Shown here: piece after piece, positions 54,742 through 58,150 of the stretch
Layout of the letters: the number at the start of each line of letters is the position of its first letter
Position numbering within the stretch: position 1 is the stretch's first letter
NCBI RefSeq assembly: GCF_000218625.1
Contig: NC_015672.1
Location: 186,001-250,000 of the forward strand
Source: Flexistipes sinusarabici DSM 4947
Lineage (GTDB): Bacteria > Chrysiogenota > Deferribacteres > Deferribacterales > Flexistipitaceae
Length of the DNA: 64,000 nt
Direction: 5' to 3'
The notes under the pieces: model-generated
Database searches by the model: none
What the model was told of the DNA's origin: nothing
Seen by the model: the letters and a program-made list of their open reading frames with translations, nothing else
Position numbers and translations under genes: made by a program

Positions 54742-54945
54742 ATGAAGAAGGTTTTATATCTCTGGCTTTTGTTTTTTTTCATGGGATTTGTTATGATCAA
54801 TTTTCCTTTTCTCCTTATCTTTGACAAATTTCAGCTTATTTTTAATATACCTTTAATTTATTATTATCTGATAATAGGATGGCTGTTTTCTATACTGGTA
54901 GTGTATGTTTTTGTTAAAAAAATAGACAGAGACGAAAATGATTAG
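54742..54945 (+). CDS. Small two-helix membrane protein coupled to symporter chimera
   Basis: A 67-residue protein with two hydrophobic helices (VLYLWLLFFFMGFVMINFPF, YYYLIIGWLFSILVVYVFV) and a charged tail (KKIDRDEND). Small accessory membrane proteins of this size accompany several sodium/solute symporters, and a small ORF (cbrX) is described just upstream of cbrA in Pseudomonas. Its 3' end overlaps the chimera start by 8 bp, so co-translation is likely. No strong ribosome-binding site is visible. Function is unproven. Confidence 0.75.
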   Translation: MKKVLYLWLLFFFMGFVMINFPFLLIFDKFQLIFNIPLIYYYLIIGWLFSILVVYVFVKKIDRDEND

Positions 54946-57900
54946 TCCGCCTGTTTTGGCAAGTGTGACATTCTGCTATCTTATTCTGTTGTTTGTTGTA
55001 GCTTATTACTCTGAGAAAATTTATAAAAAAAATCCTGCTTTTCTGAACAACCCCTATGTGTACACGTTAACTCTGGCAGTATACTGCACCAGCTGGACTT
55101 ATTACGGTTCTGTGGGAAGGTTTACCACCCACGGGATCGAATTTCTGGCTATTTATCTGGGACCTACGTTTGTAATTTTTACGTGGTGGTTTCTGCTCCG
55201 GAAAATGGTGCGGATTTCTGAAGAGTACAGCATAGCATCATTGGTGGATTTCATCAGTTTCAGGTATGGAAAATCCAATATCCTTGGTATTGTTGCGGCT
55301 ATATTTTGTTTATTGGGAGTTATTCCTTATATTTCCCTGCAGTTGAAATCTATGAGCGATACTATTCAGATAATGCTCGGATATGAGCTTGTCAGAGAGG
55401 CTAATATTTTTAAAGACGAGTCGTTTTACGTAGCCCTTTTTATCGCCATTTTTTCAGCTGTTTTTGGTACAAGGCATTTTGGAGATAAACGTAAACACCC
55501 TGCCTTAGTTGGTGCAATTGCCTTTGAATCGATTCTCAAACTGTCTATTTTTCTGCTGGCAGGATTTATGGTCACCTTTGTTATGTTTAATGGTGTTTCC
55601 GACATCTTCACACAGATGATAAATAATGACAATATCGAGGTTCAGAGAAAGTTTTATTCCCTTGCCACTATTCAGGGAGCAGCCGCTTCACCCTCCGAGT
55701 GGCTGGCTGTGATTCTTATGAGCATGATGGCTGTAATGTTCCTGCCCAGGCAGTTCCACATGGCTGTTGTGGAAAATCTCAATGAGCGTCATATACCCAA
55801 ATCAATGTACTTGTTTCCATTGTATCTTTTTCTTATAAATCTGTTTGTAATACCCATTGCTTTTGCGGGCATAATTATTTTTCAGAATTCGGGTAATGCC
55901 GATTATTATTCTTTAACGATATTTTTAAAAGAAAAACAGTTCTTCTGGGCAATACTGGTATATCTGGGCGGAATAGCTGCCAGTACAGGAATGGTTATTA
56001 TTGCTTCGGTCAGTCTTGGGACGGTGTTTGTGAACAATATACTTTTACCGTTTTTCGTCCGTATTCTTGTTAGAAAAAAGATCGGTTCTATTCTTATTAA
56101 TTTAAAAAGACTTATGATAATAGTGATTATTCTACTTGGATATTTGTATTATTATTTTGTGGGTAACTCATTTTCACTTGTGAGTCTCGGTCTTACATCT
56201 TTTGCGGCGGTAACCCAACTTGCTCCGATTATTATATGCGGCATGTTTTTCAAAACAGTAAATGAAAAAGGGGCAATTGCCGGGATTATTGCAGGATTTG
56301 TGGTATGGTTTTACACTCTTATTATTCCATTTGTGGTAAAAGCCGGGCTTCTGCCTGACAGTATTCTTTACGACGGGTTATTCGGAATATATCTGTTTAA
56401 TCCGACAGCCTTATTCGGGCTTTCCGGGTTTGATATGTGGTCCCATTCACTTTTCTGGAGTCTGCTTTTTAATATTATCTTCTTTTTCGGGGTTTCCATA
56501 TTTTCAAAACAGAGTGAATCGGAAAAAGAAACCGCTGAAGCATGCGTGGAAGCACTGAAACTGGAGCGCTTTATCAGGTCAAAAGCGGTGATTTCGGGAC
56601 TTGGTGTGGATGATATGCAAAATATTCTGAAAGATTTTTTTGGTGAAAAATATGCTGCCAATAAAATCGATGAATATCTTGAATCCATTGATAAAAAACG
56701 TGGTGAACTGAATGCTTTTGAAATTACAGAGCTTAAGTCATTGACTGAAAAATATCTGTCAGAAGCTGTTGGACCGGGTGCCGCCAGACTGATTTTAAAT
56801 TCATATATGGATATGATCGGTTCGAAAGAACAGAAAGTAATGGATGTGTTTAAGGATCTTGTTTCACTGAGTGTCACAGAATCGCGGGAAACACTCATAA
56901 AAAGATTATCAGAGCTTAATCTCCTGCTTGATGTTTCGAAGGTTTTTGCCGGAGTGGGAGATTTGCAGTCAAAGATTGACAGAGCACTTTCTCTTATCAA
57001 GGAAACATTCCGCTTTGATCTTGTGATTCTGAGAAATATCAGAGAGGAAAAGCTTGTTGCTGTATCTTATGTGGGTGATATGACCGGAGGGCTTATTTCC
57101 AGTTACAGGGTACTTGAGCCTGAGCATTCCTATATAGGAAAAGCTGTAAAACTTAGAAAGCAGTTTGCGGTTAATGGTATAGACCATATAGAGCTGAATC
57201 AGTTTTCATCTGAGTTAAAAAGACACGGTATAGTTTCTTTCTGTCACACTCCCATTATTATCGGGGGCAGATTGCAGGGGATGCTTTCATTTTTCTCAAA
57301 GGAATATAAAGGGCTGTTTACGGATGAATTCCTTGATCTTCTGCAGAGTGTTGCAAACCAGATGGGTTTTTTGATTGATAACAGTAAACAGACAGAGCAG
57401 CTTATAAAGATGCGCGAAATTTCCAAAGAGCTTGAGATTGCCAAAGAGATACAAAACTCACTCCTACCGGACAAATTTCCTGAAGTAAGAGGACTTAAGG
57501 TTGATGCAACCTGTATTTCTTCTGAATATGTGGGCGGGGATTATTTTGATTTTTTCAATGTTACTGAAGACGGTTTTGATTTTGTTGTGGCTGATGTTTC
57601 CGGGCATAATATTGCATCCGCTCTTGTAATGTCCGAAGTGAGAAGTCTCATAAAAAGCATTGTAAACAGCAGAGGAGAGTTATCTCCTGCGGAAATTCTC
57701 GGACACATTAACAGGGGAATGTATGATGATTTGGCAAAATTGGAATTCATCATTACCATGATTTATATGAGAGTGGATACAAAGAACAATAGGATTATAT
57801 ATGCTAATGCCGGTCAGAACCCTCCTATTATATGTGACAAGGGCAAAGAGGCTTATGAGGTTGTCGGTGGGGATCCGCTTCTGGGAGTATTTTCCGAATA

Positions 57901-58150
57901 TTCCTTCAAAGAATTTACGGTTGATCTGAAAGGTAATGAAACAATTCTTGCTTATACCGACGGTTTAACGGATACACAGAATGTTTATGGCGATTTTTTC
58001 GGTATAGAAAATTTGAAAAAGACTTTATGTGGAGTGATGTTTAAAGATCCTTCTGAACTTAAATCATATATTCTTGATACGCTCATTGAATTCAGGGGTG
58101 ACAGAGACCAGACAGACGATGTGACCATGGTTGTAATAAGTCTTAGATAA
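54938..58150 (+). CDS. SLC5 symporter-STAC-GAF-SpoIIE (PP2C) phosphatase chimera
   Basis: A 1070-residue membrane sensor. Residues ~1-525 are a sodium/solute symporter domain with ~13 helices; VYCTSWTYYGSVG and GGIAASTGMVIIASVSLGT are typical of the CbrA-like branch. Residues ~540-630 resemble STAC (YLSEAVGPGAARLILNSYMD). A GAF domain follows at ~660-805. A helix (IAKEIQNSLLP) leads to a SpoIIE-type PP2C domain (~850-1070) with its acidic metal-site motifs intact: EYVGGDYFDFF, VVADVSGHNIASALV, ILAYTDGLTDTQ, DQTDDVTMVV. CbrA-type relatives carry a histidine kinase here instead. The substrate and the target phosphoprotein are unknown. Confidence 0.88.
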   Translation: MISPPVLASVTFCYLILLFVVAYYSEKIYKKNPAFLNNPYVYTLTLAVYCTSWTYYGSVGRFTTHGIEFLAIYLGPTFVIFTWWFLLRKMVRISEEYSIASLVDFISFRYGKSNILGIVAAIFCLLGVIPYISLQLKSMSDTIQIMLGYELVREANIFKDESFYVALFIAIFSAVFGTRHFGDKRKHPALVGAIAFESILKLSIFLLAGFMVTFVMFNGVSDIFTQMINNDNIEVQRKFYSLATIQGAAASPSEWLAVILMSMMAVMFLPRQFHMAVVENLNERHIPKSMYLFPLYLFLINLFVIPIAFAGIIIFQNSGNADYYSLTIFLKEKQFFWAILVYLGGIAASTGMVIIASVSLGTVFVNNILLPFFVRILVRKKIGSILINLKRLMIIVIILLGYLYYYFVGNSFSLVSLGLTSFAAVTQLAPIIICGMFFKTVNEKGAIAGIIAGFVVWFYTLIIPFVVKAGLLPDSILYDGLFGIYLFNPTALFGLSGFDMWSHSLFWSLLFNIIFFFGVSIFSKQSESEKETAEACVEALKLERFIRSKAVISGLGVDDMQNILKDFFGEKYAANKIDEYLESIDKKRGELNAFEITELKSLTEKYLSEAVGPGAARLILNSYMDMIGSKEQKVMDVFKDLVSLSVTESRETLIKRLSELNLLLDVSKVFAGVGDLQSKIDRALSLIKETFRFDLVILRNIREEKLVAVSYVGDMTGGLISSYRVLEPEHSYIGKAVKLRKQFAVNGIDHIELNQFSSELKRHGIVSFCHTPIIIGGRLQGMLSFFSKEYKGLFTDEFLDLLQSVANQMGFLIDNSKQTEQLIKMREISKELEIAKEIQNSLLPDKFPEVRGLKVDATCISSEYVGGDYFDFFNVTEDGFDFVVADVSGHNIASALVMSEVRSLIKSIVNSRGELSPAEILGHINRGMYDDLAKLEFIITMIYMRVDTKNNRIIYANAGQNPPIICDKGKEAYEVVGGDPLLGVFSEYSFKEFTVDLKGNETILAYTDGLTDTQNVYGDFFGIENLKKTLCGVMFKDPSELKSYILDTLIEFRGDRDQTDDVTMVVISLR

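Follow-up and report, generated by a model that had tools for sequence, protein, structure and literature searches.

Sensors of the CbrA type join a transporter-like SLC5 domain, through a STAC domain, to a histidine kinase, and a gene of the bacterium Flexistipes sinusarabici DSM 4947 raises the question of what such an input does when a phosphatase occupies the output position. The gene lies at 54938 to 58150 of a 64,000-nucleotide stretch of the genome (NC_015672.1, positions 186,001 to 250,000; here called the window, whose numbering is used for its features, all of them on the plus strand). It encodes a protein of 1,070 residues (P0001) with SLC5, STAC, GAF, and PP2C domains. We consider it likely that this fusion is a transceptor in which a phosphatase stands in place of the histidine kinase and feeds a partner switch made of a STAS protein and an RsbW-like kinase. 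Neither SLC5-STAC histidine kinases nor RsbU-type phosphatases are new, and the operon evidence is the main gain over the preliminary description of the locus, which was made from the DNA letters alone.

Domain architecture of the fusion protein

The input part of P0001 consists of an SLC5 (solute:sodium symporter) domain of the CbrA type (residues ~1 to 525; 54938 to 56512) and a STAC domain (residues ~553 to 626; 56594 to 56815) with a GP.AA motif at 612 to 616. Residues 10 to 624 aligned by phmmer with residues 13 to 592 of the SLC5-STAC part of Pseudomonas CbrA, solved by cryo-electron microscopy (PDB 10ED_A; E = 3.8 × 10−72), in one collinear piece taking in all 13 transmembrane helices and STAC, as expected from the symporter domain of about 13 helices and the STAC-like segment that the preliminary description had proposed. 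The Pfam SSF match fell slightly below its cut-off (21.1 versus 22.8 bits), so that Pfam alone was insufficient to settle the SLC5 identity. The top match of a STAC-only profile was the STAC domain of CbrA (10ED, 521 to 593), at a weak E value of 0.0026. Matches for both the SLC5 and the STAC part were therefore obtained in the domain search suggested at the outset.

The remainder of the chain was assigned by Pfam and PDB matches. A GAF domain at residues 676 to 814 (56963 to 57379) matched PF13185, PF01590, and PDB 2QYB, and the SpoIIE/RsbU-type PP2C phosphatase domain at residues ~843 to 1069 (57464 to 58144), also recognized in PDB and Foldseek searches, matched PF07228 over residues 878 to 1069 (E = 1.3 × 10−41; 143 bits versus a cut-off of 25). 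The Pfam scan gave SpoIIE as the C-terminal output and found neither HisKA nor HATPase_c. An AlphaFold model (mean pLDDT, 78; pTM, 0.54) contained the expected helices and folds; Foldseek returned SGLT, NIS, and CHT1 for its N-terminal part and the RssB, SiaA, and SpoIIE phosphatases for its C-terminal part, SiaA (6K4E) being the closest active solved phosphatase by fold. Between GAF and PP2C, residues 796 to 841 (57323 to 57460) form a single helix in the monomer model, with low confidence at 822 to 826, which may be a coiled-coil-type link like those of RsbU or RssB (PMC12143880). The stretches 542 to 553 and 625 to 657 were of low confidence, and the model therefore does not give the inter-domain geometry. 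The single open reading frame with all four domains, starting with ATG, stands as first described: the fusion was found at full length in 17 of the 51 genomes of the Deferribacterota-type phylum, where the suggested survey of architectures was run, and at 10 loci in records from Desulfuromonadia or other deltaproteobacteria, which rules out a frame or assembly artefact.

The acidic motifs of the phosphatase, noted as intact in the preliminary description, proved to be conserved. Aspartates D868 of VGGDY (the GGD-motif aspartate; 57539 to 57541), D886 of ADVSGH (57593 to 57595), D1008 of YTDGL (57959 to 57961), and D1061 of QTDDVT (58118 to 58120) would correspond, by motif, to D610, D628, D746, and D795 of SpoIIE, for which the metal ligands were taken from the structure paper (PMC3517971). 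D868, D886, D1008, and D1060/D1061 were invariant in the alignment of 27 homologues, and the domain is apparently catalytically competent. It is extremely improbable that the PP2C domain is a pseudophosphatase or was fused by chance and has no function: the invariant metal aspartates rule out the former, and the conservation of the architecture in two phyla, over identities of 40% to 99%, together with the conserved operon described below, also argues against either.

Features of the SLC5 domain point to a small solute as ligand. In CbrA, K196 fills the Na2 site and is linked to proton coupling, and the residues of the histidine pocket have been described (PMC13022988). The counterpart of K196 is K201 (55538 to 55540), with lysine in 25 of the 27 homologues. 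CbrA pocket residues Y51, W55, F71, Y75, and F406 are kept in P0001, and S53 is changed to T, A56 to T (T54), and F248 to S (S262). Judged from the aligned residues, the ligand is probably a small solute handled in a proton-type cycle. Given the changes at T54 and S262, it is probably not that of CbrA, and it is perhaps a solute other than histidine. Nutrient sensing by transport or binding, as envisaged in the preliminary description, would rest on the homology to CbrA and on these kept residues.

STAS and RsbW partners and a candidate sigma factor

In 11 loci (nine Desulfuromonadia or other deltaproteobacterial records and two of the three genomes of phylum family f10), the fusion gene is followed directly by a STAS gene and then by a gene for an RsbW-like ATPase. 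The STAS proteins of these operons are 110 to 125 residues long, every one with the serine of a DSSG motif, and the ATPases are of ~140 residues (identity of both by Pfam). Across the 51 genomes of the phylum, an RsbW orthologue was present in 15 of the 17 genomes with the fusion and in none of the 34 without it (Fisher P = 4 × 10−11, ignoring relatedness); at the family level, six families had both and four had neither. Other HATPase_c_2 proteins occur in the families lacking the fusion, indicating that the co-occurrence is specific to this RsbW. Gene order in relatives and co-occurrence thus support partner switching as the output, which had initially been inferred from the domains.

The complete Flexistipes genome (2,526,590 bp) has a single SpoIIE domain, that of the fusion. 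A STAS-RsbW pair (P0002 and P0003) is located at 550.0 to 550.8 kb with no phosphatase beside it, and an orphan STAS protein (P0005) is encoded at 1769.2 kb. The suggested search of the genome for STAS proteins and RsbW-like kinases lacking a dedicated phosphatase was therefore positive, and both the pair and the orphan are candidate cognate partners of the fusion. Since STAS proteins of the P0005 type have, at high score, the same distribution as the RsbW orthologue, there may be two substrates.

A candidate for the target of the switch came from family f2, where an RpoS-like sigma gene lies ~2.4 kb upstream of the fusion on the same strand. The predicted operon runs RpoS-like sigma, M24 peptidase, acrylyl-CoA reductase, CbrX-like peptide (see below), and fusion (genome G003, locus L138, 2478 to 9063; genome G010, locus L139). 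This linkage is that of one genus and hence counts as one event. Family f5 has an RpoS-like sigma without having the fusion, and in f10, which has the fusion, none was detected, so that the protein is a candidate target only, and a weak one. As a universal target it is ruled out, its co-occurrence with the fusion being inexact.

Several features of the partner loci were observed alongside. The STAS-RsbW pair divergently adjoins a gene for a CBS-DHH manganese pyrophosphatase in all 12 loci examined in the order (L049, 7026 to 9923; L160 to L169; L171). The pair of Flexistipes is also convergent with a cluster of genes for propionyl-CoA carboxylase and methylmalonyl-CoA mutase (L049, 79 to 6775); this cluster and the acrylyl-CoA reductase of f2 hint weakly at short-chain carboxylates. 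The orphan STAS, which has the DSSG motif, is in an apparent operon with a sucrose-phosphorylase-like GH13 gene (L050, 3330 to 5533) and is closer than the 550-kb STAS to the operon STAS proteins of Desulfuromonadia. Most relatives have a second SpoIIE phosphatase of ~530 residues, missing from Flexistipes and its closest relative (G000 and G001). Elsewhere, two apparently identical transposase genes (L052, 92 to 1411 and 8362 to 9495) flank two serine-less STAS-like open reading frames, clpQ/hslV, and hslU.

Companion peptide, known systems, and origin

An open reading frame of 67 codons (54742 to 54945), absent from the preliminary description, overlaps the fusion start by 8 nt and encodes a two-helix membrane peptide that we call CbrX-like. 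CbrX of Pseudomonas has 58 residues, overlaps cbrA by 17 nt, and couples cbrA translation (PMC6591292); in the CbrA structure it is bound to the SLC5 domain (PMC13022988). Translation of the 67-residue peptide may likewise be coupled to that of the fusion. In an alignment with 17 other peptides, N20, P22, P37, and W47 were invariant. Such peptides precede SLC5-STAC genes of both output types: a strict motif screen found one before 21 of 22 PP2C-type and 37 of 70 histidine kinase-type genes, against 11 of 765 other open reading frames of the same loci, mostly shadow frames over the same peptide. A PDB search with the single 67-residue sequence and with a profile returned no match to CbrX, and the name is therefore based on position and size, on the two hydrophobic helices, and on the motif kept across both output types. 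The CbrX-like peptide is thus a widespread companion of SLC5-STAC genes, beyond Pseudomonas.

The fusion shares features with several known systems. Like CbrA (SLC5-STAC-PAS-histidine kinase), it has the collinear SLC5-STAC part of ~615 residues, the Na2-site lysine, most pocket residues, and an overlapping gene for a two-helix peptide; unlike CbrA, it ends in GAF-PP2C rather than PAS-DHp-CA, and no response regulator gene lies beside it. The SLC5/STAC histidine kinases CrbS/MxtR and RpuS (acetate, pyruvate) have the same type of input, whereas their output is two-component. With the PPM phosphatases RsbU, RsbP, and RsbZ the fusion has in common the PF07228 domain, an N-terminal sensor attached through what may be a helical linker, and STAS and RsbW partners, but its sensor combines GAF with a transporter-like membrane module. 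A possible parallel is HsbR-HsbA of Pseudomonas aeruginosa, a PP2C and STAS system controlling an RpoS-type sigma factor, although HsbR has no transporter domain and the target here is a candidate only. The input of HsbR is of the response-regulator type.

The preliminary description knew of no characterized example of this domain order. For characterized proteins this stands, as we found no SLC5-STAC phosphatase of that kind in the open-licence literature searched; it does not hold for the combination as such, because actinobacterial SSS (SLC5-type) proteins with GAF, PP2C_SIG, and HATPase_c in one chain are noted in a review (PMC7918813, Figure 6). Those proteins differ in having HATPase_c in addition, and STAC is not reported for them there. 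No Streptomyces was named among the plasmid matches to the SLC5-STAC part, the set in which Streptomyces-type SSS-PP2C proteins were sought.

Genomes of the Deferribacterota type and of Desulfuromonadia both contain the architecture. Three relatives are SLC5-STAC-GAF-histidine kinases, and most of the others also have a histidine kinase output. In a tree of the SLC5-STAC part, in which CbrA is a very long branch, the PP2C types cluster but are split by the three GAF-histidine kinase proteins with a modest, non-starred support of 93. For the origin of the PP2C output, one swap followed by a reversal, two swaps, or poor tree resolution are all compatible with this topology. The f10 proteins nest among those of Desulfuromonadia, suggesting transfer. 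Since GAF is common to the kinase and PP2C types, the output may have been exchanged behind GAF, which would fit the concept of modular linkers in PPM phosphatases and histidine kinases (PMC12143880). A further output type was observed on plasmid pAZKH of Azoarcus sp. KH32C (L177, 4766 to 8156), where SLC5-STAC is joined to GGDEF-EAL; a gene for a 64-residue hypothetical protein lies just upstream.

Proposed signalling route and alternatives

We propose that the SLC5 domain takes a small solute into its pocket or transports it, with proton coupling through K201, and that STAC, positioned beneath the transporter as seen for CbrA in 10ED, would relay the conformational change to a GAF dimer, itself possibly a receptor for a cytoplasmic ligand. 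By analogy with RsbU, the helical linker would then order and dimerize the PP2C domains, turning on an Mn/Mg-dependent phosphatase. Its expected substrate, to which gene order points, is a STAS anti-anti-sigma protein phosphorylated at the DSSG serine. Once dephosphorylated, STAS would sequester the RsbW-like kinase and free its target, most likely a sigma factor, with the RpoS-like sigma as one candidate.

Several observations weigh against this route. The transmembrane region of CbrA was reported to be dispensable for CbrA signalling (PMC6591292), so that sensing may not be the task of the SLC5 part. Throughout the order, Flexistipes included, the STAS-RsbW pair lies apart from the fusion, and the two are matched there through co-occurrence and elimination. 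The RsbW orthologue was undetected in two of the 17 fusion genomes, G012 (64% complete) and G049 (complete), the latter of which carries another RsbW-like ATPase. Finally, no sigma gene co-occurred exactly with the fusion. The first of these points favors a reading that we regard as a lesser but serious possibility, namely, that phosphatase and partner switch exist as described but that the signal is received by the cytoplasmic GAF domain, SLC5-STAC serving chiefly to anchor the protein in the membrane or as a separate transporter of low capacity. An intracellular signal has been proposed for CbrA, which still signals without its transmembrane domains (PMC6591292, PMC7918813), and GAF-linker-PP2C alone is a known sensor layout (RsbZ; PMC12143880). 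However, decay would be expected of a mere anchor, whereas conservation extends to the SLC5 pocket, the Na2-site lysine, STAC, and the companion peptide alike, and in 10ED the core of the transporter is where STAC docks (PMC13022988).

The last point, together with the distribution of the RpoS-like sigma over f5 and f10, bears instead on the target. It is possible, though on balance unlikely, that PP2C acts on STAS and RsbW and that the output of RsbW is not a sigma factor but a diguanylate cyclase, an anti-FliA type target, or an enzyme activity; SiaA, the structural neighbor of the phosphatase, belongs to a biofilm system. Against this stand the predicted f2 operon and the partner switch that acts on RpoS in Pseudomonas aeruginosa (PMC6482189). 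Information might also flow in reverse, with the STAS/RsbW state or the phosphatase domain regulating solute transport through STAC; a role of STAC in regulating solute transport was proposed by the authors who described it (PMC4834066). We consider this improbable, given that SLC5-STAC of CbrA without the kinase cannot support growth on histidine, its main role there being signalling rather than uptake (PMC13022988), and that a complete phosphatase-STAS-kinase operon better fits an output role.

Taken as a transceptor-phosphatase, the fusion adds a second output type to the SLC5-STAC transceptors, one whose set of partners is complete and simple. In the CbrA field, the question of whether the transporter domain signals to the output by way of STAC, and by what mechanism, has been hard to address in CbrA itself, because its signalling induces another histidine transporter and attempts at reconstitution failed (PMC13022988); a phosphatase acting on a small soluble STAS protein would provide an easy in vitro readout. 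More tentatively, SLC5-STAC with a CbrX-like peptide may be a general plug-in nutrient input with at least three outputs (histidine kinases, PP2C partner switches, and cyclic di-GMP enzymes), of which the PP2C version would be a closed operon of peptide, transceptor-phosphatase, STAS, and RsbW that sets an RpoS-type sigma factor by direct nutrient sensing. The fusion also offers a sensor for the partner-switching systems of Deferribacterota and Desulfuromonadia, in which a nutrient signal at the membrane is probably turned into a change in gene expression without a histidine kinase.

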